A stretch of 62,367 nucleotides of DNA from the NCBI GenBank assembly GCA_947371955.1, contig CANBRQ010000006.1, positions 1 to 62,367 of the forward strand, in the 5' to 3' direction. The notes beneath the pieces were generated by a model. It was not told where the DNA came from. It made no database searches and saw nothing but the letters and a program-made list of their open reading frames with translations. The stretch is from Paracoccaceae bacterium (lineage in GTDB: Bacteria; Pseudomonadota; Alphaproteobacteria; Rhodobacterales; Rhodobacteraceae). Positions 45,724-59,499 of the stretch are shown piece by piece (position 1 is the first letter of the stretch; every line of letters begins with the position of its first letter). Both the position numbers and the translations under genes were made by a program.

Positions 45724-46845
45724 TCAGTCCGGCAAGCCAGCCTTCAACATGCCGGCGCGCACATGCGCATAGTGATCCGCTGTGGCGCTCGCGATGCGCA
45801 ATCTTGAAACCTTGAACGCCGGGTCCCGTTTCAGCACGCGTCTTGCAGCTTCGCAGGCGTATTCGCCAAATGCCAGATAGGCGCGCGCCAACGGATAGTC
45901 CGGATTAAGCAGCACCACCTCGCGGAACATCGAGAGGGCCTTGGCATTGTCATCACCGGCATAGCCGCGCAACACACATTTATAGGCTTCCATCGACGGC
46001 TTGCCCCGCGTGTTTTCGACAATGGCATGTTCCACCCGGTTTTGCAGCGAGGCGATGATGGCTGCGGCGATTCGGGCCGGAACGCCCGGGGTTTCGTTCA
46101 GGTCACATTCGAAAACCGCGCTCCACACCTAGGCGCGGGCGGCGGCACGGATCAGTCTGACCGTGATGCGCAGGCCGGTTGCCGTGGTCTGAATGCAGCC
46201 TTGCGCCAGAAGCGAGGCTCCCAGGCGCTGCCCGATCTGGGCCACGTCCTGCGTGATTTGCGCAATCGCTGCAGCCGAGAAGCGGTCGATCACGAACAAC
46301 ACGCGAAATCGCCCAAGGCCCGTGGTGATCTCTTCGGCCAGACCCTCGCCAAACAGGTTGAAGCGCGCGTTCCCGGTAAGATTGACGAATGGCAGAACCG
46401 CGATGGAGGCGGACGTGTTGGCCACCGATGCCGTCATCCGCAGTGCATCGATGCGCCCGGTAAGCAAATCTCGGTACAGATCCTCGGTCTCCTGTTCGGG
46501 TCCGATGCCAAGATCCTTCTCAAGCGCTTCCCGGCAGGACCCATACAGCTTCAAAGCGCCGCTCCGGTCGCCCCGGGCGAAGCTGATCCGCATGGCAGCG
46601 CGGCAGACCTGTTCGTTCAGGCGATCCAGATTAATCAGACGGTGGCCAAGGGCTGCAAAGACGTCGCCCGCCCCCTCGGCAAATTCCGCTTCGGAGGCAG
46701 TGGTCAAGAGCCTGACGGCCATCGTCTCAAGTCTTTGACGTTCGGCCAGAAGCCAGGTTTCAAACTCCGGTGCCGACCCTTTCAGCCCCGAACATGCCCG
46801 GAACGGCTTCAGGCTTGCATGAGCGGTTGTTTCGACGAAATCTTG
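45724..46845 (-). pseudogene. Truncated and stop-interrupted SARP-like (BTAD) regulator
   Basis: The minus-strand frame starts without an initiator just after a stop at 46846-46848 and reads FETWLLAERQRLETM, a BTAD segment (VCRAAMRISFARGDRSGALKL), then SIAVLPFVNLTGN typical of TolB-like domains. It has TAG at 46129-46131 and continues in the same frame as VWSAVFECDLNETP and TPR-like sequence to 45724. The N-terminal DNA-binding domain is missing and the left neighbour gene begins where it should be. It is a relative of the intact regulator at 55961-57589. Confidence 0.78.
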
Positions 46846-49151: not shown

Positions 49152-50153
49152 TTAGTGCAGTTTGTTGCAGCTGTCCTTGCCATGGGCATCCGGCAAAGAA
49201 GCGCCGTCCGTGGCCATGAAGTCCCAGGTATAGGAATCGGCCGCCAAGGTGATTTTCAAGACACCCTCTTTGCCACCGTTGTCGCTTCCAAAAGGACCCA
49301 CTTCTGAAATGTCCCAGCGGGACGTGTACAGACCCTCCGTCAACCCGTCGCCTCCGGTCCCCACGACAAAGGATCTGATGCCGTCGTCGGCGGGCTTCCC
49401 CTCACCGTCGTGCCGTTTGAACTGCTCGTAGTCGTGGTCATGCCCGGCGAGCACGATGGACGCCCCTTTGCGGTACAGCATACCAAGCTCCTTTTGCATC
49501 GGGTGGTCGTTCGAAAGCGGCGTGGATTTGTCGGTCTTGTAGCCGTGGCCATGCCGGCCGGATGAAAACGTCGGCGCATGCCAGAAGGCCAGAAGGCAAG
49601 TCGTGGGCGCCGTGATCCCGGCCAGGGTCGTTGCCAGCCAATCCCTCTGAGCCTTCTCTTCATCGCCGCTAAGGTTGGAATTGAGCCCGATCAACATCCA
49701 GGTGCTGTCCTTGTCCGCCAAGGGCAGCGCGAAAAAGCCTTTGCCGCTGCCCATTTGAAGAACGGCAGCATTGGTCTTGAAATGTTCGAAGTAGGGGGCC
49801 GCCCCGTTGGTAATATATTCGTGGTTGCCGGGCACCGGAAGGATGGCGGCGTCCAGTCCGCTCCACTGCGCGGCAAAACAGGCAAATTCGTCCGTGGTAC
49901 CGGAGCTATAGGCAAGATCACCCAAGGCCAGCACCTTCACGGGGATGGACTTTTCGTTGCCCTCCTTGATGGCTCTCGCGAGGTCTCCGGTCGCAGTGGC
50001 GGCTATGAAATGGGCAGTACCTTCCTTCGCACAGGTCGCGATGTCGCCAGCGGCCACCAGGATACCCACGGTTGGCGGGGCGGCTTGCGCAAAGGCCGGT
50101 GCTACGGGCAGAAATGTCAGGCCGAGAACGGCGAAGCAGGGCAGACGGGTCAT
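49152..50153 (-). CDS. Secreted calcineurin-like metallophosphatase
   Basis: 333 aa from the ATG at 50153 (CAGGAGAA upstream). Sec signal peptide MTRLPCFAVLGLTFLPVAPAFAQ. The metallophosphoesterase motifs are in order: AAGDIATC, LALGDLAYSSG, PVPGNHEYI, LAFWHAPTF and VLAGHDHDYEQF. It resembles purple-acid-phosphatase-like periplasmic enzymes and should cleave phosphomonoesters outside the cytoplasm. It is the last gene of a six-gene minus-strand run that starts with the PAP2-fold gene at 55836. Confidence 0.9.
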   Translation of the reverse strand: MTRLPCFAVLGLTFLPVAPAFAQAAPPTVGILVAAGDIATCAKEGTAHFIAATATGDLARAIKEGNEKSIPVKVLALGDLAYSSGTTDEFACFAAQWSGLDAAILPVPGNHEYITNGAAPYFEHFKTNAAVLQMGSGKGFFALPLADKDSTWMLIGLNSNLSGDEEKAQRDWLATTLAGITAPTTCLLAFWHAPTFSSGRHGHGYKTDKSTPLSNDHPMQKELGMLYRKGASIVLAGHDHDYEQFKRHDGEGKPADDGIRSFVVGTGGDGLTEGLYTSRWDISEVGPFGSDNGGKEGVLKITLAADSYTWDFMATDGASLPDAHGKDSCNKLH

Positions 50154-50212
50154 GATCTTCTCCTGAAATCGGATGGGCTCTCGGCCCCGGTGAAGGTGTT
50201 TGGGAGGGTCGG

Positions 50213-51169
50213 TCAGGCGTCCGAATCGATGGGGACCTGACCGCTTGCCAGCCCCCAATCGGCCAGTTGGTAGGTGCCGCCGTGTACCGTTCCACTGCCC
50301 GTTCGCATCGTGGCCTTGCGATGCCGGACGTCGTTTTGGAAGGTCGGTTTTGAGGTTTCCACCACGACATCCTCGATGATCTGCCGTAAAGCCGCGTTGG
50401 TTTGGGCAGGAGAGCCGGCAAACCGAGCCCTGACCTCGGCTTCGCGACCCTTCGACGACATGCCACCATTCTGAACGGCGATGTCGTAAAACAGCGCCAG
50501 GTCCAGTTCCTCGCCAAGCCCGAATGTGGCGGCGTCATGCCGGGCGATGGTCCAATAGATCCGCTTGGCGCGGTCGGTCTGCATGCGCTGAATCTCGGGA
50601 AACGCGCCCAGGGTTTCAAAATACGACCGCCACGGCTCTGCCACGCCCATCTTGTGCGGACCCCGGCTGATGGTGTCGGCCCAGGCGACCCGTTCCGCAC
50701 GCGGCAATTTGATCTTGGCAAGGATGACGGCGGCATCACTGCCGAAGGCCAGATTGAACAGGTCCGGAAAGCCGGCGCTGATATCGGTCAGGATGGCTCC
50801 CAATTCGCCATTCGACAGGGTGAAGCCGATGATCCCCCAAGTCAGGCCCGCGCCGTCGAAATTGCCGACGACATGGGTGTAGCCTGTACCCTCAAAATGC
50901 GCCGTCACTTGCAGGCACCGGCCGAAAATGGACGGCTCCGGCAGGTGCATCAGTCGCAACCAGGTGACGTCGTCGACTTCGCCAGTGACCGGGATGCTGG
51001 CGAAAGCCTGGTACTGCTTCACCATTTCCCGTGTGGCAGAGCCAAAGATCCCATCGGCCACGATCTTTTGCGGCAGCAGCGCGTTCAGCGCCGTTTGAAG
51101 GCCTGACACGACGATGCCGGAAACCAGCACCTCGCCGGGGTCGGCTTTTCTGAAAAATAGTCTCGGCAT
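50213..51169 (-). CDS. Peptidoglycan-binding-domain protein with a lysozyme/chitosanase-like domain
   Basis: 318 aa from the ATG at 51169 (AGGAAA upstream). Residues about 15-75 are a PG_binding_1 domain (SGLQTALNALLPQKIVADGI, FGSATREMVKQYQ, VTGEVDDVTWLRL). Residues 90-290 carry HFEGTGYTHVVGNFDGAGLT followed by WGIIGFTL, similar to the catalytic start of GH46-like lysozyme-fold enzymes, with a candidate acidic pair (Glu and Asp). No signal peptide is seen. It is followed on its 3' side by the metallophosphatase and preceded by a second peptidoglycan-binding enzyme. The hydrolase assignment is tentative. Confidence 0.7.
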   Translation of the reverse strand: MPRLFFRKADPGEVLVSGIVVSGLQTALNALLPQKIVADGIFGSATREMVKQYQAFASIPVTGEVDDVTWLRLMHLPEPSIFGRCLQVTAHFEGTGYTHVVGNFDGAGLTWGIIGFTLSNGELGAILTDISAGFPDLFNLAFGSDAAVILAKIKLPRAERVAWADTISRGPHKMGVAEPWRSYFETLGAFPEIQRMQTDRAKRIYWTIARHDAATFGLGEELDLALFYDIAVQNGGMSSKGREAEVRARFAGSPAQTNAALRQIIEDVVVETSKPTFQNDVRHRKATMRTGSGTVHGGTYQLADWGLASGQVPIDSDA

Positions 51170-51225
51170 GACATGTTTCCTTCGGTTATTGGTCGCTTGA
51201 CCGGACAAATTGTCAGGCAGAAAGC

Positions 51226-52047
51226 TCACAGAGCTTCCGCTGCCACTTCGAAATGCATTCCATCCATGGTCGAGAAATGCCCGCCCCAGTAGAAGTCGTT
51301 GGCATGGGCGATGGCCACCAGTTCGCGGACACAGCCCCGGTCCCCCATCATGGCAGGAACCGACTTGCGCGGGTTCCACGTGGCGTTGATGTCAAACGCG
51401 GTGCCCCAGGCGTGGTTGGACAGATTTGCGACCGTGGCCTTGGTCGACCCGCGTTTCAGCCGCAGCGCGCAACTGCCGTCGAAGGTCAGGATGCGGTCAA
51501 GCAGCCCTGCCCCCTCCCAAGCCGCAAACAGCGAGACCAGCCGGGCCGTATGACGCTTGTTGAACCGGACAAGCCCGTCGGTTTTGGTGACGCCGTGATC
51601 CAGCGGAACGATGCAATCCTTCAGCTGAGGAATTTGGACCGAGACGATGTTTTCAGCCTCAAAACTGTTGGTGACAGTGATGTGCTCGGGGTTGCCGGCA
51701 ACCGGCGACAGGAAGAATTCGATCTCTCCACATTTCGTCTGCATCAAAGCGCCCGCCGGCGAGGACAGTTTGGTCGGCTTTTTCGGCCAGCCGAGATCTT
51801 TCTTGGCAGGATCGGGATCAAAAGCAGGGGCGGCAAAGCCCCTCGGCCCGGAAACGGCAAAGCAGGTGTCGTCAAACACCGCGCCATCGGCCAGACCGAA
51901 CCTCTTGCGGAACCGTTGAACCTCGGCCTTGGTGTTGCCGCCATAGGATCCGTCGGTCACAAGTGAGGCGGTCAGTTCGGCGTTGAGATATTCTTGAAGC
52001 CTGCGCACGTCATTGCCGAAAGCCCCAATGCCAAGAATGTAAGCCAT
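51226..52047 (-). CDS. Peptidoglycan-binding M15-type peptidase (VanY/endolysin-like)
   Basis: 273 aa. The N-terminus is a PG_binding_1 domain (GNDVRRLQEYLNAEL, TDGSYGGNTKAEVQRFRKRF). The C-terminus has the M15 zinc motifs NHAWGTAFDIN and DGMHFEV with FYWGGHF between, as in D-Ala-D-Ala carboxypeptidases and L-Ala-D-Glu endopeptidases of phages and bacteria. It should cut stem peptides of peptidoglycan, but no signal peptide is visible, so export by an unusual route or cell lysis is needed. Confidence 0.87.
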   Translation of the reverse strand: MAYILGIGAFGNDVRRLQEYLNAELTASLVTDGSYGGNTKAEVQRFRKRFGLADGAVFDDTCFAVSGPRGFAAPAFDPDPAKKDLGWPKKPTKLSSPAGALMQTKCGEIEFFLSPVAGNPEHITVTNSFEAENIVSVQIPQLKDCIVPLDHGVTKTDGLVRFNKRHTARLVSLFAAWEGAGLLDRILTFDGSCALRLKRGSTKATVANLSNHAWGTAFDINATWNPRKSVPAMMGDRGCVRELVAIAHANDFYWGGHFSTMDGMHFEVAAEAL

Positions 52048-52196
52048 GCTACTTTCCTTTGATGCTGGTTAAAGTTTGAAAAGAGTCTTGTCGGTCTTGG
52101 GCGTTCTGCCCTTCTCAATGCCGTGGTCAAAACCGCCAAATCCCTCGCCGGTGTCCGTGATCGGGGGGGTCCGACGATGCCACGGGTTGAACCATT

Positions 52197-52874
52197 TTAG
52201 CCGCCGCCTGCGATTGTGACGTCCTTGGGCAGGGCAGCGCTGTTGGCGCAGGCGGTCAGCATCGCCAGATAGGTGTTCAGCGCCAGCGTGCCTGCGGTTT
52301 GATTGGGCACGGACTCCATGATATTCTGCTGCGTTGCGGCATCGCGGACCTGCTTCAGGACTGCGGCATAGTCGGCAACCTCCTGTACCGTCGCAGTCCG
52401 GGCGTCGATCTTGACGCTTTCGATCGACCCGGCAGTCGCATAGGCGGCCGCGCGAAGATCGGCGGGTGTCATCGTGTAAGACAACGCGATGCCGGTGATC
52501 GAGGCGATGCATTCCAGCCGTTTGGCAGCAGAATAGATAGCGTCGCTGCTGGCCTTTGCGGCCTCGCGTTTGGTGACCACCCCGGTGGTGGCCCCGACGA
52601 TCCCCACATTGGTCGCGGTGGCAGTGGCTGCGGCTGTGGCGGCCGAGGCCGCACCAGCGGCGGCCGCGATCACGACATAGGACCCGATGGTATTGGTCGT
52701 CACCGTCTTGCGCGCGGCCATGGCATAGGCCTGTGCCAAGGTCTGCGCCGCCACGTGCAGGCTGTCCAGATCGGCATCCGGGGCGATCTGGACGCTTTGA
52801 TCGGCCAAATCGAGATTGTGCTGTGTGCAGGCGCAAAGCAGGGTCAGCAGGGCAAAAGCATTGCTCCTTTTCAT
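52197..52874 (-). CDS. Predicted lipoprotein of unknown function
   Basis: 225 aa. Lipoprotein signal MKRSNAFALLTLLCACTQ with a lipobox ending in Cys at about residue 16. The mature part has an Ala/Thr-rich hydrophobic stretch (residues 64-90) that could insert in a membrane, and helical sequence with KTVTTNTIGSYVVIAAAA. I do not recognise the family. It lies between the subtilase and M15 genes in the same direction and may anchor or escort the other products. Confidence 0.75.
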   Translation of the reverse strand: MKRSNAFALLTLLCACTQHNLDLADQSVQIAPDADLDSLHVAAQTLAQAYAMAARKTVTTNTIGSYVVIAAAAGAASAATAAATATATNVGIVGATTGVVTKREAAKASSDAIYSAAKRLECIASITGIALSYTMTPADLRAAAYATAGSIESVKIDARTATVQEVADYAAVLKQVRDAATQQNIMESVPNQTAGTLALNTYLAMLTACANSAALPKDVTIAGGG

Positions 52875-52949
52875 CTTTCTCTCCTGTATCGAGGGGCGTC
52901 ATCTGTCGGGAGGCCGTGGAACTGGCCTCAACTAGAAATCAATCCAAGG

Positions 52950-54785
52950 TCAGCCCGCAATCAAACCATTGGTCAAATCGAAGCGCACCTCGCAGGGGTA
53001 TCCGCGCTCTTTCACCGCCGCCGGGGTGTCAACCGGTGGCGCGATCAGCGCCGTCCAAGCCGCCGCAGAACCGCCGTCCAGAACATGGCGAACGAAGTGG
53101 CGGGTTGCGAGCGCGGTGGAAAAACTGGTGCCCTGAACGATGGCCGAACTGCCCGAGCGATAACCGGCAGTAATCAATCCCGGTCGTGACGGCGACCGAT
53201 CCGCCGGAAAGGCTACGCTTGGCGCGAAGTTCGGCACGTTGGTCAGATCGCCGCGGGATCCCCATGCCACCGGTTGCTTGTCTGAACAGCGGTAGCCCGC
53301 AACGATCACAGCGCCACTTTCCACCGCCGAAGCGTTCAGCGTGCCACATGGGCTGGCGTCAACTTTGTGATCGTTGACCAGTTGCGACGGACGACTTCCG
53401 TTGTCGTTGGGCCGCAAAGCACGTTCAGACTGCAACTCGACATCCAGTCGAACAGGCGACGCAGTCCGGCTGACCTGCAACCGCCAATGACCAGGCGGTG
53501 CAGACATGCGGTCCGTGCGATGCGGTTGGGTTGGAGCCACGCAAAGGATCAGCCCCAGCCGGTCACCTGGATTTGGGGCACCCAGAACATAGGCTCGGGC
53601 GATTGGGTCCTCCTTGCCTTCAGGGCAAATTTCCTGCGCCGTAGATGCCTCGCAAGGAAAGATCACGGCCGCAGGCCCATTGGGTGGGCTCAAGGTCATC
53701 GTCAGCCCCGCCAAATCTGCATCCGCCTGAAACCAGACCTCGGCATAGGTCGAAAATGGATTGCCCGCCGCCACCTGCCAGCCGATTCCGGTCTCGTCTT
53801 CGCGTGTGGCCGTCAGGCTGGCCCGGGCCTTGCCCAAACCGTCATTTCCAGCAGGCATGAACAGGTTGGCCGAGGGATGCTTGCCCAGAAACGCCTTGAG
53901 CCGTTTGGGCAAAGGGTCAGAGCCGTCCTTGGGCCCAGCCGAAAGACCATAAGACAGATTTATCGCGATGGTCGGCCATTTGGTCGCGTCATCGGACAGC
54001 AGTTCGGTCAGCCTCTGCTGAACCCAGCTGAGCGCCTGATCCACAAATACATCCAGGAAGACTCCCGAAGGCGAAAGGATGCGGTTGGACGGCAGGGAAA
54101 CCGCAAGGATCGGCACGTCGCGAAGCGTCAGGTTTTCCGCGTCGGAACGCATGGGGTCGGTGCCCGCAGCCAGGTCCAGCACATGGGTTCCATGGGCTTC
54201 CATCAGCGCCGTCCCGCGTGGAGCCTGCGCCATCTCCAGAACCTGACAGCCAAGCCTGCCAAGCGCAGTATCCTCGGTCAGGGCCTCGACGGCTTGGAAA
54301 TCGTCTTGACGCAACTCGCGCCCATAGATCACCCGGTTTGATCCGGTCAGAAAAGGTGCCTCCATCAACCAATGGGCGCAGATGCGCGGTGCGCCGGTCC
54401 GGCTGCGGAACCTTTCCTGCAACGGGTTTATGTCCGTGTCGATCACGACGATGATCGCCTTGGGATGGGTGCCAAAAGCGTCGATGGGGTCGCCAAATTC
54501 GACGTCGCCCGCAACTTGATCGGCTTTTGGCCCCAAAGCCACCGGCCACATCGGCAGAAAGCGTTGGCTTCTGGCGGCATCTCCGCGCGAAGTGACACGG
54601 AAAGGTGTGATCGCCCCGCCATCACCTTCGACCTGGGTCTCGCGGGAAAAGGTCAGCCCCGACAGACTATCTCGCGCGCCACCATTGCTTTCGACTTGCT
54701 TCCACCAATCGACATAGGCGGACTCTTCGCCATTTGGCCAGTCGCTCGGGCCGGGCCGATAAGCCCGTGTGACAAGTTCCGGCAT
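52950..54785 (-). CDS. Subtilase (S8 family serine peptidase)
   Basis: 611 aa from the ATG at 54785 (AGGGGAG upstream, 1 bp from the stop of the PAP2 gene). The catalytic triad is Asp116 in VVIDTDI, His198 in EAHGTHVLDLAAG and Ser554 in QGTSFSTALATR; the oxyanion Asn is in MPAGNDGLG. The first 100 residues lack a signal peptide or a clear I9 inhibitor domain. The insertion between Asn and Ser (about 170 residues) holds a beta-rich segment. Length and lack of secretion signal set it apart from digestive subtilisins and fit a specialised processing or toxic protease. Confidence 0.9.
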   Translation of the reverse strand: MPELVTRAYRPGPSDWPNGEESAYVDWWKQVESNGGARDSLSGLTFSRETQVEGDGGAITPFRVTSRGDAARSQRFLPMWPVALGPKADQVAGDVEFGDPIDAFGTHPKAIIVVIDTDINPLQERFRSRTGAPRICAHWLMEAPFLTGSNRVIYGRELRQDDFQAVEALTEDTALGRLGCQVLEMAQAPRGTALMEAHGTHVLDLAAGTDPMRSDAENLTLRDVPILAVSLPSNRILSPSGVFLDVFVDQALSWVQQRLTELLSDDATKWPTIAINLSYGLSAGPKDGSDPLPKRLKAFLGKHPSANLFMPAGNDGLGKARASLTATREDETGIGWQVAAGNPFSTYAEVWFQADADLAGLTMTLSPPNGPAAVIFPCEASTAQEICPEGKEDPIARAYVLGAPNPGDRLGLILCVAPTQPHRTDRMSAPPGHWRLQVSRTASPVRLDVELQSERALRPNDNGSRPSQLVNDHKVDASPCGTLNASAVESGAVIVAGYRCSDKQPVAWGSRGDLTNVPNFAPSVAFPADRSPSRPGLITAGYRSGSSAIVQGTSFSTALATRHFVRHVLDGGSAAAWTALIAPPVDTPAAVKERGYPCEVRFDLTNGLIAG

Positions 54786-54786
54786 C

Positions 54787-55836
54787 CTACCACTCCCCTT
54801 TGGCACGGACCCAGAATTCGGCCAGCGTGGGCATCGGACCAAGTCTGCCCTGCGCGGTGCGCCGCCCAAGAAGTTCTGCCAGATTGGCCGAACCGAAAGG
54901 ATTTGGGTTTGGCTTGCCGTTTTCTGTCCAGATGCCCGGGACAGTCCCGTCGTAGATGGCACCGCCCAGTGGAGCGTTGCCCATCGCGCAATCCGCCAGC
55001 CAATCGCCCAGACAGCAGCCCAACAGCCCTCCGGCCAAGCTGTCATGCGGGAAATGCACGCCAGCGACCGAGCGATTCTCGGCGATGCGGCGCGCCTGTT
55101 TGAACAGGATCATGTCGGCGCGGACCGCATCCTCGGTGGGGATCGCCGAAGAAAGACGATGCAGCACAGTCGCCACAAAAAAGGCTTCGCAGCCATGCCC
55201 CGAAGGAAAGCTGCCATGCGGCGGCGTTTGGATCAGGGGCATGATTTCGGGCGCAAAGGTGTTTGGCCTTGGCGCGCGGAATCCATGTTTTATCGGCATC
55301 TCGACCGTAACGGCAAGCCGCACCGCCGCTTCCAGCAGTTCCAGCGTCCAGCGCCTTTGGCTGTCATCCAGCTGATGGATCGTGCCGAAAAACGACAGGA
55401 TATCATGCATCTGCACGACGATCTCGGGCAAGCGGTCCTCGCGCAGATCTGCAAGGGTGCGCAACGTCGGCATCTGCGCCTGGAAATCCATGGGTGCAGG
55501 TTTCGTGATGGCGATCAGCGGTCCGGCGCCCACGATCAAGACTTTGGCAAGGTTGGAATCGCAGGTCAGTTGCAAGGCCGACACCAGTTCCTGATCAATG
55601 ACATCGCCGCGCAAATCGGCGGTCAGATAGGACAAGCCCGTTCCCGGAATCGTGGCCGGTGCGGCACTGCCCAAGCCATCCCATGACCCGACAATACCGT
55701 CCCGATTGAGCGCCAAAGCAAGAGAGGTTTCGCTGGAGGCTTCGCTTCCGGCGTGATCGGTCGCGCTGCCGGATTTTCCGGATTTTCCGGATTTCCCCGA
55801 CTTGCCCGATTTCCCCGACTTTCCAACTTCTGACAT
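54787..55836 (-). CDS. PAP2/vanadium-haloperoxidase-fold enzyme with (GKS)6 N-terminal tail
   Basis: 349 aa. The active-site motifs of the vanadium chloroperoxidase/acid phosphatase superfamily are all present: Lys183-x6-Arg190-Pro191 (KHGFRAPRP), PSGH (211-214) and Arg255-x5-His261-x3-Asp265 (RSVAGVHFPHD). It could be a phosphatase or a haloperoxidase; sequence alone does not decide. Residues 5-22 are six perfect Gly-Lys-Ser repeats, giving a flexible basic tail. There is no signal peptide. First gene of the six-gene run; its ATG has GAGG 8 bp upstream. Confidence 0.88.
   Translation of the reverse strand: MSEVGKSGKSGKSGKSGKSGKSGSATDHAGSEASSETSLALALNRDGIVGSWDGLGSAAPATIPGTGLSYLTADLRGDVIDQELVSALQLTCDSNLAKVLIVGAGPLIAITKPAPMDFQAQMPTLRTLADLREDRLPEIVVQMHDILSFFGTIHQLDDSQRRWTLELLEAAVRLAVTVEMPIKHGFRAPRPNTFAPEIMPLIQTPPHGSFPSGHGCEAFFVATVLHRLSSAIPTEDAVRADMILFKQARRIAENRSVAGVHFPHDSLAGGLLGCCLGDWLADCAMGNAPLGGAIYDGTVPGIWTENGKPNPNPFGSANLAELLGRRTAQGRLGPMPTLAEFWVRAKGEW
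55771..55824 (-). repeat. Six 9-bp tandem repeats encoding Gly-Lys-Ser
   Basis: Coding-strand units vary at wobble positions (GGAAAGTCG, GGGAAATCG, GGCAAGTCG, GGGAAATCC, then GGAAAATCC twice). The last copies are identical in DNA, so copy number may change by slippage without frameshift. Protein-level conservation with DNA divergence in the older copies suggests selection for the tail. Confidence 0.9.
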
Positions 55837-55906
55837 GGCGCATCCCTCAGGATCAATTTCTGAATTCGACTATCCACGCGAAACACGATTCCTGTTTATG
55901 TTTTCT

Positions 55907-55940
55907 TTGACATCCGGCAGAATTTGCGACGAATTTGCGT
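55907..55940 (+). promoter_or_regulatory. Regulator promoter with 11-bp-phased direct repeats
   Basis: TTGACA (55907-55912), 18-bp spacer, GAATTT (55931-55936). The direct repeat GAATTTGCG occurs at 55920-55928 and 55931-55939, exactly 11 bp apart. SARP-type regulators bind direct repeats with 11-bp phasing next to the -10, so this may be an autoregulatory site of the gene just downstream; it is also the only obvious control region for the divergent hydrolase operon. Confidence 0.6.
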
Positions 55941-55960
55941 TCCGCGACGGAGGGATTGTT

Positions 55961-57589
55961 GTGCCCGAAGGCTATTCACTGAAACGTCTTTCGATTCGCT
56001 TGTATGGACCACTGGAAATTCGCGCGGCGGACGGGGCGGATGTTACGCCACAAGGATCGCGCAAGATTCTCGGCCTTGTGGCGCTGTTGGCAACCGCACC
56101 CCGGCTGGAACGGGAACGCGGCATGATCGAGGATACCTTGTGGAGCGATCGCAGCGCTGAGCAGCGCTCTGCCAGCCTGCGGCAGGCTTTGTCGTCGCTG
56201 CGCCGGTCGCTTGGCCAGTCGGGCATGGCGCTTACGGCAGACCGTCACCGGATAGGCCTTGACCCGGCCCTCATCGAAATCCTGCCGCCAAATCCTGCGG
56301 ACAACGGGATCTTCCTGGAAGGACTGGTGGTGCCTGATCCTGTATTCGAGGCGTGGTTGCGTCTGGAACGCGGCATGCGCCTGCGGCAGTCTGGCAGCGA
56401 TCCCAGACCCAGCGCTGCGACGCCGGGCGCTTCGGTGGGGGAAATGCCTGCGCTGTACATCCTGCGCGAACCTCGCTCATCGGCGCAGGAAACCATGTTG
56501 GGCAATCTGTTTGTCGACGCCCTTTCGCGCTCTTTGGCTGAACATTTTTCTCTTCAAATCAATTACATAATGCCACGCCGTCAGGAGGCGGGGCGTGCGC
56601 GTGACCTGACTTTTACCGCGGATGCGATGATCCTTGGCGGGACGACCGCGCTTCGTGTGGCGCTTGAAGCAGGTCCCATGCGGCGGCCGCTGTGGTCGGG
56701 TCATCGGATGGCGGTAGAACTGGGCGCGATGGCCGCGCTGGAGAACGACGACATCCAGCGCCTGGTCAACGAAGCCGTCGAGGGATACGCAGACGCGCTT
56801 TTGGCGGATCAACGTGCGGGCCATGTGCGGCTCAACGCGACGGCGATAGGACGGTTGGCCGTGCGCCGGATCTTTACGATGCGCCCGACGGAATACGAAG
56901 ATGCCGACGATCTCTTGAATCGGGCCTTCGACCTCGATCCGCGCGGCATCTACCTTGCCTGGAAAGTGCTGATGCGTATCATTCAGCTTGTCGAGCGACA
57001 CCAGATCGACCGTTTTGTTGTTATTGATGAGGCAATTGACCTTGCCCATCGCGCCGTGGAACTTGAGCCGATGAATTCCATGGTTCTGGCGGCAGCGTCC
57101 AATGCCGCGATGCTGGTTGAAAGCAATGCGGGTGCGGCGCTGGAATTGGCACAACGCTCCGTCCGGTTGAACCAGTCGAACCCATTTGCTTGGGATTGCC
57201 TGTCAACGGCCGCGCTCCATGCCGGCAAACTCGAAGAGGCCTATGTTTTTGCAGTGAAGGCGCAAAGATTGGCCGGAAACACGCCGTTCAAACATTGGTA
57301 TGATATGGGGCGCTCCCTTATGGCCACTGTGACCGGACGGCTGGATGAGGCATTGCGCCTGGCCTCTGCGGCATCGGTCGTCCCGCATTTCAAACCGCCG
57401 CTGCGCTATATTGCCGCGCTTTATGCCGACAAGGGGCTGACTGACCAAGCCAGTCTCGCGGTCGCTCAACTGCGCCGGATTGAGCCGGACTTTGCGCCGG
57501 GCCAGATGGTCGAAGACCCGGACTATCCGGTCGCCGCCCTGCGTCGCAGCCAAATCCTGAAGCGTGGCATGTTTGGCGATATGTCCTGA
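55961..57589 (+). CDS. SARP-like regulator with BTAD, TolB-like and TPR regions
   Basis: 542 aa from GTG 55961, chosen because GGAGGG lies 6 bp upstream and the promoter repeats would otherwise be coding; an in-frame ATG at 55898 is less likely. Residues 5-100 form a winged-helix DNA-binding domain (LSIRLYGPLEIRAADGADVT, KILGLVALLATAP) with SARP-type sequence AEQRSASLRQALSSLRRSLG. A BTAD-like linker ends EAWLRLERGM. A TolB-like region follows, then TPR-type helices from about 340 to the end. Divergent from the hydrolase operon, it is the likely activator of it. Confidence 0.85.
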   Translation: MPEGYSLKRLSIRLYGPLEIRAADGADVTPQGSRKILGLVALLATAPRLERERGMIEDTLWSDRSAEQRSASLRQALSSLRRSLGQSGMALTADRHRIGLDPALIEILPPNPADNGIFLEGLVVPDPVFEAWLRLERGMRLRQSGSDPRPSAATPGASVGEMPALYILREPRSSAQETMLGNLFVDALSRSLAEHFSLQINYIMPRRQEAGRARDLTFTADAMILGGTTALRVALEAGPMRRPLWSGHRMAVELGAMAALENDDIQRLVNEAVEGYADALLADQRAGHVRLNATAIGRLAVRRIFTMRPTEYEDADDLLNRAFDLDPRGIYLAWKVLMRIIQLVERHQIDRFVVIDEAIDLAHRAVELEPMNSMVLAAASNAAMLVESNAGAALELAQRSVRLNQSNPFAWDCLSTAALHAGKLEEAYVFAVKAQRLAGNTPFKHWYDMGRSLMATVTGRLDEALRLASAASVVPHFKPPLRYIAALYADKGLTDQASLAVAQLRRIEPDFAPGQMVEDPDYPVAALRRSQILKRGMFGDMS

Positions 57590-57866: not shown

Positions 57867-58199
57867 ATGAAGCGGATCAGAAGCTACTCGCGGGTGACGA
57901 CCGAAGCCCTGTCGCTCTTTGGCAAACTGATCAAGACGACGCGGCTTGAACGCGGCCAGACCTCCGAGGAGCTTGCAGAACGGGCCGGCATCGGCCGCAC
58001 GACCTTGCGCAACATCGAGAATGGCGGACCCGGAACCGAAATCGGGGCAGCCTTCGAGGTCGCCGCACTCCTTGGAATCCGGCTCTTTGGCGTTGATCAG
58101 CCGACGCTTGCCCTGCATGCGGCGCGCTTGGACGAGAAACTGACGCTGCTTCCGAAGACCGCTCGCCCCGCCAGCCCGGAGGTTGACGATGACTTCTAA
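57867..58199 (+). CDS. hipB: HipB-like antitoxin / XRE-family regulator
   Basis: 110 aa from the ATG at 57867. The helix-turn-helix reads LGKLIKTTRLERGQTSEELA followed by ERAGIGRTTLRNIENGG, a HipB/XRE DNA-binding domain. Its stop overlaps the hipA start region, so antitoxin and toxin are co-translated, antitoxin first, as usual for type II systems. It should neutralise HipA and repress the pair through the upstream inverted repeat. Confidence 0.88.
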   Translation: MKRIRSYSRVTTEALSLFGKLIKTTRLERGQTSEELAERAGIGRTTLRNIENGGPGTEIGAAFEVAALLGIRLFGVDQPTLALHAARLDEKLTLLPKTARPASPEVDDDF

Positions 58200-59499
58200 G
58201 CTCGCGCAGCGCAATGAAGCCTTTGTCTGGATCTGGCTGCCGGGCCAGACCGAGCCGGTCGTGGCAGGCCGTATCGCACAAGACCAAGACCGCTACGTCT
58301 TCAACTATGGTGCCAGCTATCTGAGCCGCAATGACGCCATCCCGATCTATGAACCCGAGCTTCCGCTTGGCCGAGGCCTGATCGAGCCGCAGCCCGGCCT
58401 CTCGATGGCCGGCAGCCTTCGCGACGGCTCCCCGGATGCCTGGGGGCGGCGCGTGATCATCAATCGGCTGATGGGGGCCAAGGCCGCTGAAGCCACAGAC
58501 CTTACGGAACTCACCTTCCTGCTTCAGTCGGGGTCGGATCGCATCGGTGCCTTGGATTTCCAGGAGTCCGCGACCAATTATGTACCGCGCTTGAAGGCCA
58601 ACGCGCCTTACGAAGAGCTTCTTGAGGCCGCAGCCATGGTCGAGAAAGGTATGTCGCTGACACCAGCCCTTGATTTGGCCCTGAATCACGGAACCTCAAT
58701 CGGTGGCGCACGCCCGAAGGCACTGATTGATGATGGAGATCGCAAGCTGATCGCGAAGTTTTCGGCAAGCGCTGATATCTACAGCGTCGTGAAGGCAGAA
58801 TTCCTTGCCATGAAGCTGGCATCTGCCTGCGGCCTGAACGTAGCGCCTGTCTCCTTGATCCCAGCTGCAGGCAAAGACGTCCTGCTCATCGAGCGTTTTG
58901 ATCGGGTAAAGGTGGCGGCCGGGTGGCAGCGGCGGGCGATGGTTTCCGCGCTGACACTCTTCGGCCTTGACGAGATGATGGCGCGGTATGCCTCCTACGC
59001 AGACTTGGCAGAGATCATCCGCCACCGCTTCGCATCCCCAAAGGACACACTGCAGGAACTCTTCGGGCGGATCTGTTTCAACATCCTGTGCGGCAATACG
59101 GACGACCACGCCCGCAACCACGCCGCGTTCTGGGACGGCAAGACGCTGTCCTTGACGCCTGCCTATGACATTTGTCCGCAAGGCCGCACGGGCTCTGAGG
59201 CCACCCAAGCCATGCTGATCACCGGCGACAACCGCAGGAGCACGCTGGCCAGTTGCCTGGCCGCCGCTCCAACCTTCCTGCTGAGCGAGGACCGCGCAGC
59301 ACAGATCTTGCACAAGCAGATCACCATCATCGCGGGCGCGTGGGACAGTATCTGCGACATGGCCAAACTGAGCCAGACGGACAAAAACCTGTTTGCGGGT
59401 CGACAGTTCCTGAACGCCTATTGCACTCAGGGTCTGGGCAAAGAGCATGCCGCCTTGCACGAGGCGTTCGCGCAGGCAAGGGCGACGATTTCCGGTTGA
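58189..59499 (+). CDS. hipA: HipA-family serine/threonine kinase toxin
   Basis: 436 aa from the ATG at 58189 (GGAGG 6 bp upstream). HipA features in order: the N-terminal couple domain around FNYGASYLSR, GGARPKALI and KLIAKFSAS, the ERFDR segment, the catalytic NTDDHARNHAAFWDG and the LTPAYDICP metal-binding segment. All key residues look intact, so the kinase is probably active. In E. coli HipA phosphorylates glutamyl-tRNA synthetase and stops growth; the target here is inferred only. It overlaps hipB by 11 bp. Confidence 0.92.
   Translation: MTSKLAQRNEAFVWIWLPGQTEPVVAGRIAQDQDRYVFNYGASYLSRNDAIPIYEPELPLGRGLIEPQPGLSMAGSLRDGSPDAWGRRVIINRLMGAKAAEATDLTELTFLLQSGSDRIGALDFQESATNYVPRLKANAPYEELLEAAAMVEKGMSLTPALDLALNHGTSIGGARPKALIDDGDRKLIAKFSASADIYSVVKAEFLAMKLASACGLNVAPVSLIPAAGKDVLLIERFDRVKVAAGWQRRAMVSALTLFGLDEMMARYASYADLAEIIRHRFASPKDTLQELFGRICFNILCGNTDDHARNHAAFWDGKTLSLTPAYDICPQGRTGSEATQAMLITGDNRRSTLASCLAAAPTFLLSEDRAAQILHKQITIIAGAWDSICDMAKLSQTDKNLFAGRQFLNAYCTQGLGKEHAALHEAFAQARATISG

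Follow-up and report, generated by a model that had tools for sequence, protein, structure and literature searches.

Gene layout of the locus

The window analysed here, a stretch of 62,367 nucleotides from a Paracoccaceae bacterium (assembly GCA_947371955.1, contig CANBRQ010000006.1), holds between positions 49152 and 57589 six co-directional genes on the minus strand and, facing them, one regulator gene on the plus strand. An earlier reading made from the DNA letters and their translations (the sequence-only reading) had described this arrangement, and all seven genes are indeed present; it interpreted them as a single island of cell-wall hydrolases, a subtilase and a PAP2-fold enzyme under the control of a SARP. 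Here we focus on three of these genes, which encode the regulator, the PAP2 enzyme and a subtilase of family S8, and on a distinctive feature that had been overlooked, an N-terminal array of six Gly-Lys-Ser tripeptides, (GKS)6, on the PAP2 enzyme. These elements, below called the cassette, are:

55898-57589, plus strand: winged-helix/TPR regulator that faces the operon and may start at ATG 55898 or at GTG 55961
54787-55836, minus strand: soluble PAP2 enzyme with a complete active-site motif and an N-terminal peptide array (PF01569, E 8.8e-15)
55771-55824, minus strand: the (Gly-Lys-Ser)x6 array at the PAP2 N-terminus, beginning 4 residues past the PAP2 start, with synonymous codon variation among copies
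52950-54785, minus strand: Csp-like subtilase (S8) with no signal peptide seen; both fold and profile matches give Csp proteins first

The start codon of the S8 gene lies one base past the stop codon of the PAP2 gene, which suggests that the translation of the two is coupled. A second cassette is present in the same draft genome (353 contigs), on contig C16. Rfam gave no matches between 45000 and 62367, neither promoter-like elements (4, with 2.2 expected) nor terminator-like elements (9, with 9.6 expected) were clearly over chance, and plasmid records contained no close DNA match to the 8.4-kb region.

A regulator, an array-bearing PAP2 enzyme and a protease recur together

The regulator, the array-bearing PAP2 enzyme and the protease recur together in Alphaproteobacteria and in some other Pseudomonadota. 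Genes outside the window were called with a simple codon-score caller. Relatives of the PAP2 enzyme were found in 21 of 61 genomes (E <= 0.001), with 18 places matching at E < 1e-27. Searching with the S8 protease of the window identified 16 places in 13 of the 61 genomes; all of these lie in the same cassettes as strong PAP2 places, which accounts for 16 of the 18, and the remaining two have the same S8 by clustering. Among 20 PAP2 neighbourhoods, the window included, a window-type S8 was present in 18, another S8 in two and the regulator in 17, and in one genome (G017) the regulator sits between the PAP2 and S8 genes. A single pattern scan of 84,980 species genomes yielded 549 places with PAP2 relatives; the analysis covers the 80 best of them, and in 79 of these the PAP2 gene was called. 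At these fetched loci the S8 gene lies at most two genes from the PAP2 gene in 76 of 79 cases and the regulator in 77 of 79. Three of the five misses (L076, L085, L094) are near a sequence end, at L081 the S8 gene lies five genes off, and at L149 no regulator was called. The cassette also occurs on plasmids of Phaeobacter (21 records), and annotated records name the genes "phosphatase PAP2 family protein" and "S8 family serine peptidase".

Judged by gene order across these genomes, the functional unit is the module of regulator, array-bearing PAP2 enzyme and protease. The proposed SARP-controlled island of wall hydrolases was rejected as a unit, because the four genes downstream of the core are not conserved with it. 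The sequence-only reading had also recognised no described system here, and literature searches aimed at the cassette likewise found no description, although subscription journals were thinly covered and absence from print is thus unproven.

Every called PAP2 gene carries a short tandem peptide array

All 20 PAP2 proteins from the first set have a tandem short peptide at or near the N-terminus. The units were GKS (window), NSQ, GNQ, GGGA, GNA, GRN, VGN, HGM, HGI, HGL, NKS, TGW, GGA and NHS, and two distant loci have an SR unit about 60 residues into the PAP2 protein. Several starts in this set were assigned manually so that the gene would take in the array, and the start of L036 was shifted downstream to the next Met. 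Among the fetched loci, an array of at least four copies was present in 79 of 79 called PAP2 genes. When the same stretch was searched in other genes, arrays were found in 2 of 770 (1 of 770 in an earlier, less symmetric search), in 0 of 77 S8 genes, in 0 of 78 regulators and in neither of two second, larger PAP2-like genes. In 31 of the 79 PAP2 genes the array begins 5' of the start chosen by the caller; 30 of these have an in-frame ATG ahead of the array, and one has only GTG or TTG there. At the 80th locus (L118), where PAP2 was not called, GGGGA is repeated eight times in an open frame.

A phylum-wide sample of 29 further PAP2 places gave a similar picture. The repeat was present in 20 of 20 places with a regulator match in the short flank, one of which (L202) has only three copies. 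At L192 the array and an S8 gene were found, and the regulator turned up in a longer stretch. Eight PAP2 places with neither a regulator nor an S8 match had no array. Furthermore, the pattern (GKS)3 occurred in the window's draft genome only inside the PAP2 array, so that no partner protein with the same repeat was found there, and (GNQ)3 occurred across four genomes only in the array of G035.

The codons of the array vary while its peptide is maintained

We next compared the copies within arrays at the DNA level. There are 48 unit classes among the 96 distinct arrays. Copy number ranges from 4 to 21 (median 9), and the period is 3 in 71 arrays, 4 in 17, 2 in 7 and 6 in 1; a period of 5 also occurs. 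All 96 contain more than one DNA version of their unit. In 94 arrays comprising 928 units, 1286 synonymous and 21 non-synonymous codon differences were counted, a ratio of 61:1 compared to 0.32 expected, and TCN and AGY codons were mixed in 14 Ser columns. Arrays were required to have at least three perfect copies, with one mismatch per unit allowed on extension; this rule favours uniform units and lowers the non-synonymous count, but it is doubtful that it would do so to the degree observed. Because the codon differences are so overwhelmingly synonymous, selection, as read from the genes, is acting on the array peptide.

The unit itself changes between lineages. It is shared by nearly all of 21 pairs whose PAP2 proteins are less than 0.2 apart, by 30% of pairs at a distance of 0.3-0.4 and by about 0.5-2% of pairs above 0.5. 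Units such as GKS, NSQ, GWD and DAR are chemically very different, and paralogues within one genome differ in unit (GKS/HGM in G000, GGGA/TGW in G016, GNA/GGA in G019). On the Phaeobacter plasmids, six records have 5, 6 or 7 copies of NSF, differing in single-unit steps. Duplicates (L116, L129, L147) as well as L049 and L051 were left out of the codon-difference, Mantel and tree analyses.

The PAP2 enzyme resembles class A acid phosphatases

The predicted model of the PAP2 enzyme has a mean pLDDT (predicted local distance difference test) of 89.3, with values below 50 for residues 1-24, which hold the array. Class A acid phosphatases have the motif K-x6-RP, PSGH, SR-x5-H-x3-D. In the PAP2 enzyme all of the catalytic residues are present (K-x6-RP, PSGH, R-x5-H-x3-D), with NR in place of SR, that is, with an invariant Asn rather than Ser before the last active-site Arg. 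The closest solved structures are class A acid phosphatases (7f17, E 2.1e-17 by profile; 7f18, E 1.2e-6 by fold), and vanadium haloperoxidases, which share the PAP2 core with its Lys/Arg/His active site, matched more weakly in both sequence and fold. In contrast to class A acid phosphatases, the enzyme has an extra N-terminal part with the array and no signal peptide was seen. Export signals were assessed by hydropathy only, with an N-terminal threshold of 2.0: no N-terminal hydrophobic segment above this value was found in 79 PAP2 or 77 S8 relatives, and an internal 19-residue stretch above 1.6 was present in 12 of 79 and 7 of 77, respectively. Many array units are Gly-X-Y tripeptides, as in collagen-like adhesins, and one of three PAP2 proteins scanned (L034) matched collagen-like models far under their cut-offs; here, however, there are only 4-21 copies, several units are without Gly, and periods of 2, 4, 5 and 6 occur.

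Near some cassettes a larger PAP2-like protein of 662-683 residues is encoded (L097, 11747-13798; L099, 11848-13836). It matches the PAP2 model and has no array; the L097 protein has no Pfam match. Proteins from 24 loci fall in the cluster of this larger protein, perhaps because of synteny.

The protease is a Csp-like subtilase that is replaced in some cassettes

The full catalytic triad that the sequence-only reading had assigned to the S8 protease was confirmed: Asp116, His198 and Ser554, together with the oxyanion Asn314, are all in place, and none of them varies across 64 aligned relatives. PF00082 was matched at E <= 0.01 by 59 of these 64, and the window protein scored 20.3 bits, just under the curated cut-off of 21.8. 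When its predicted model (pLDDT 80) was compared with the PDB using Foldseek, the top 11 matches were all CspA, CspB or CspC of Clostridium and Clostridioides (E 1.5e-20 to 4.3e-16; 468-521 columns aligned at 13-16% identity), and the next, non-Csp match followed at E 4.8e-6. A profile search also gave Csp proteins first (9sj6, E 4.7e-26; 4i0w, E 1.4e-14). In a study of clostridial CspB, the protease is described as having a distinctive jelly-roll insert and a bound prodomain, and efficient cleavage of the cortex hydrolase SleC as requiring the cspBAC locus and CspB activity (PMC3567191). The window protease likewise has a large insertion between the oxyanion Asn and the catalytic Ser, with beta strands modelled between N314 and S554; by its predicted fold, with this jelly-roll insert, it is a Csp-like subtilase. 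The conserved partner differs, being a PAP2 enzyme with a peptide array and not SleC. The only link to SleC that we saw, with no search aimed at it, was a match of the PG_binding domain of the neighbouring GH46 protein to 9h68 (E 0.0035).

The protease is not of the same kind in all cassettes: the close relatives have the Csp-like S8, and distant ones do not always. A second S8 type takes its place at L049, L051, L226 and L227, and another S8 at L228. Furthermore, in five genomes a peptidase A4 occupies the protease slot, and array and regulator are retained in all five; two of the A4 proteins were confirmed with Pfam (PF01828, E 3.3e-23 and 1.4e-27) and the other three were identified with a model derived from this pair. 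That unrelated protease families occupy the same slot is the best evidence for proteolysis as part of what the module does.

The regulator is SARP-like in part

A BTAD domain following the winged helix defines SARPs. BTAD was not found in the window regulator, for which Pfam gave only TPR models, under their cut-offs, and whose N-terminus appears SARP-like by eye; nor was it among the families listed for 60 regulator relatives, which were 25 of 27. The search itself was able to detect BTAD, which was found at 46129-46722 of the window (E 1.9e-11) in a broken SARP-like gene (45724-46722, minus strand), where the BTAD frame runs into a stop and a downstream frame appears to continue it. In the 60 relatives, TPR was found in many (TPR_19 in 33) and Trans_reg_C in 9, features shared with SARP transcription factors, whereas a cyclase domain was found in 4. 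Thus the label SARP could not be upheld, and the evidence goes no further than "SARP-like winged-helix/TPR regulator".

Large RTX-like or repeat-rich proteins are encoded next to the regulator at L034, L037, L047, L101, L103, L138 and other loci; eight of these proteins were grouped by clustering. Pfam confirmed only the one at L047 (HemolysinCabind), and those at L034 and L037 were recognised by eye.

Wall hydrolases and other genes downstream of the core

The four genes that follow the S8 gene in the window are:

52197-52874, minus strand: short lipoprotein-like gene, apparently a local addition; no relative in fetched neighbourhoods and no NCBIfam match
51226-52047, minus strand: M15_4 + PG_binding_1 wall peptidase, apparently a local addition; signal peptide not evident
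50213-51169, minus strand: GH46-like + PG_binding_1 wall hydrolase, apparently a local addition; probably without signal peptide
49152-50153, minus strand: calcineurin-like metallophosphatase (PF00149), exported, apparently a local addition; no relative in fetched cassette neighbourhoods

No gene in the fetched neighbourhoods was related at E <= 0.001 to the metallophosphatase, the lipoprotein or the GH46 protein. The GH46 protein matched in 3 of 61 genomes including its own, and the other two matches were weak and confined to the N-terminal ~100 residues, inside larger proteins. For the M15 peptidase there were matches in 9 of 61 genomes, its own among them, and most were weak; about 100 fetched neighbourhoods contained only three M15 relatives, one of which (L050) does not adjoin a cassette. 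From this distribution the wall hydrolases, the lipoprotein and the metallophosphatase look like local additions.

It had been claimed that only the phosphatase and the lipoprotein have export signals. Both have hydrophobic N-terminal segments (hydropathy 2.23 and 2.52, respectively), and the S8 and PAP2 enzymes have none, so that this much of the claim stands. The GH46 protein passes the threshold as well (2.41 at residue 14) and leaves the exclusive part unproven; since its hydrophobic stretch runs into the start of the PG_binding domain, the call of no signal is favoured, although the measure gives no proof. We agree that enzymes without export signals call for an explanation.

We then analysed the genes adjoining the cassettes. 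From 153 non-redundant neighbour proteins, six of more than 900 residues were dropped, leaving 147, and 120 of these were scanned together with the M15 protein of L079, which was added by hand and whose cluster was already represented. As a control we used 121 proteins, of 148 listed and 177 in total, lying four to six genes from the same cassettes. PG_binding_1 was the commonest Pfam family among the neighbours, with 5 of 121 (4 of 120 without the hand-added L079 protein) compared to no more than 1 of 121 control proteins, and our own PG_binding model recovered four of the five (L076, L079, L081, L101) and none in the control. At the close relatives L076 and L079 an M15 + PG_binding protein without an evident signal peptide adjoins the cassette. 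At L075 (4342-9887), likewise a close relative, the cassette is followed by Amidase_3 + M15_3, by two proteins that Pfam does not match and by a further one that appears papain-like by eye; none of these has an evident signal peptide by eye. Wall hydrolases may thus be an occasional addition to the cassette, for which these counts are suggestive only.

A module in which the protease may act on the PAP2 repeat tail

Our preferred interpretation, to which we assign a probability of roughly 40%, is that the protease processes the repeat tail of the PAP2 enzyme encoded beside it. The regulator would control the module, and the protease would act on the flexible tail, either removing it or trimming it stepwise. 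Processing of the tail would then switch, release or time the enzyme, by analogy with the requirement of CspB for pro-SleC cleavage. In the genome studied here, the four downstream genes on the same strand, two of them encoding wall hydrolases, may be co-expressed with the module.

Several points weigh against this interpretation. Cleavage of the PAP2 tail by the protease is itself a prediction. The regulator is missing at L040 and L052, where other genes are found, and was not seen at L048, which lies at a contig end. At L247 a regulator match occurs without array or protease, so that the link to the array is not absolute, and L245, L246 and L256 have array and regulator with no match to the protease models in the short stretch; a longer stretch of L245 (L225) also gave no protease with S8 models and a motif search, A4 not being searched there. 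Finally, a protease that reads the unit would be expected to co-vary with it. In the 83 loci in which all three proteins were long enough, the partial Mantel correlation between unit and S8 was 0.25, carried by the repeat period, and fell to 0.05 among tripeptide loci; on quick trees of the same loci, whether built from PAP2, S8 or the regulator, there were two changes of period class and 47-48 of the unit. Co-evolution of the unit with S8 in particular is therefore not claimed, and because the test failed on the trees, a protease that reads the unit's sequence or tracks it specifically is not supported.

The main rival, which we regard as possible and somewhat less probable, is that the array is a tag for self-assembly or localisation. 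Identical units would present uniform faces along an extended chain, so that PAP2 copies with the same unit would associate, and the protease would dissolve or mature the assembly. The unit could change freely provided that all copies stayed alike, and differing units would keep paralogues from mixing. This would fit the uniformity of units without a fixed sequence, the different units of paralogues in G000, G016 and G019, the predominance of periods 3 and 4, and the absence of the unit elsewhere in two genomes tested. However, the array is of low confidence and disordered-looking in the monomer model and the units are chemically very different; moreover, differing units would be expected in diverged paralogues anyway, because so few pairs more than 0.5 apart share a unit.

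A doubtful extension is a barcode-like system, in which the hypervariable, internally uniform array would be counted, trimmed or released by the co-encoded protease, and units or length would feed back on the TPR regulator. Under this reading the protease family (subtilase or A4) would be interchangeable because the array, and not the protease fold, carries the information.

Unlikely, by our estimate, is the proposal of the sequence-only reading that the region is a wall-lysis island whose products are released by cell lysis or by an unknown exporter. A weak trace of it persists in the window and at L075, L076 and L079, where wall hydrolases lack an evident signal peptide, and in the excess of PG_binding_1 among neighbours of the cassette. 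However, most fetched cassettes have no wall-hydrolase neighbour, the N-terminus of the L081 protein is export-like and the start of the L101 protein is cut off. Also in its favour, the type VI sheath gene VipB is present in the genome of the window, one of 20 of 61 genomes in which it was found; it was not found in the cassette genomes G016, G017, G030 and G035, which argues against type VI as a general exporter. An intracellular defence role, also put forward at the time, gained no support: PADLOC matched none of 10 proteins, seven of them from the window; phage records contained no S8 relative; and although 21 of 22 viral places matched the PAP2 model, none of these had the array and none of the 22 had an array, S8 or regulator match, the viral PAP2 being generic. 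A defence system was accordingly rejected.

We consider it still less probable that the module serves peptide signalling, with the protease freeing short array peptides and the TPR regulator acting as their receptor. The RRNPP systems of Firmicutes comprise TPR peptide receptors, pro-peptides and processing subtilases, and the cassette is analogous in encoding together a protease, a TPR regulator and a short peptide in multiple identical copies. The turnover of units between lineages also resembles a change of pherotype. Unlike in RRNPP systems, however, the peptide forms an array that is part of an enzyme, and this enzyme has no export signal. At 2-6 residues a unit would be short to serve as a signal, unit changes are equally numerous on the regulator tree, the partial Mantel correlation between unit and regulator is small (r 0.10), and the PAP2 enzyme is left unexplained. 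Least probable by far is that the array is a functionless by-product of DNA slippage, a view which the single-unit steps in copy number between strains would fit but which is already disfavoured by the multiple DNA versions in every array, the synonymous excess (even if favoured by the detection rule), the mixed Ser codons and the presence of the array in all 79 called PAP2 genes.

The cassette thus has, on a soluble enzyme, an array whose copies are strongly selected to be alike and whose unit changes from lineage to lineage, and beside it a protease whose fold can be exchanged. This poses a testable question: how the regularity of a protein tail, and not its sequence, can be what matters. 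The cassette may be present in hundreds of bacterial species. With it, Csp-like proteases are found outside spore-forming clostridia, and the Phaeobacter plasmid copies offer culturable test strains.

Other genes near the cassettes

Some further genes were observed close to individual cassettes. An animal-type haem peroxidase gene lies beside or near the cassette at L036 (5522-7276), L051, L086, L096 and L141, as identified by clustering and, for L036, L086 and L141, by Pfam. At L046 (1365-6821, minus strand) a bacterial alpha-2-macroglobulin, a protease trap, is encoded directly downstream of the cassette, and at L208, on a plasmid of Paracoccus zhejiangensis, the cassette is located near tssH, which encodes the type VI ATPase, and a caspase family gene. 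In the window itself, a HipBA-like toxin-antitoxin pair follows directly past the regulator, with HTH_3 at 57867-58199 and HipA at 58189-59499, both on the plus strand.

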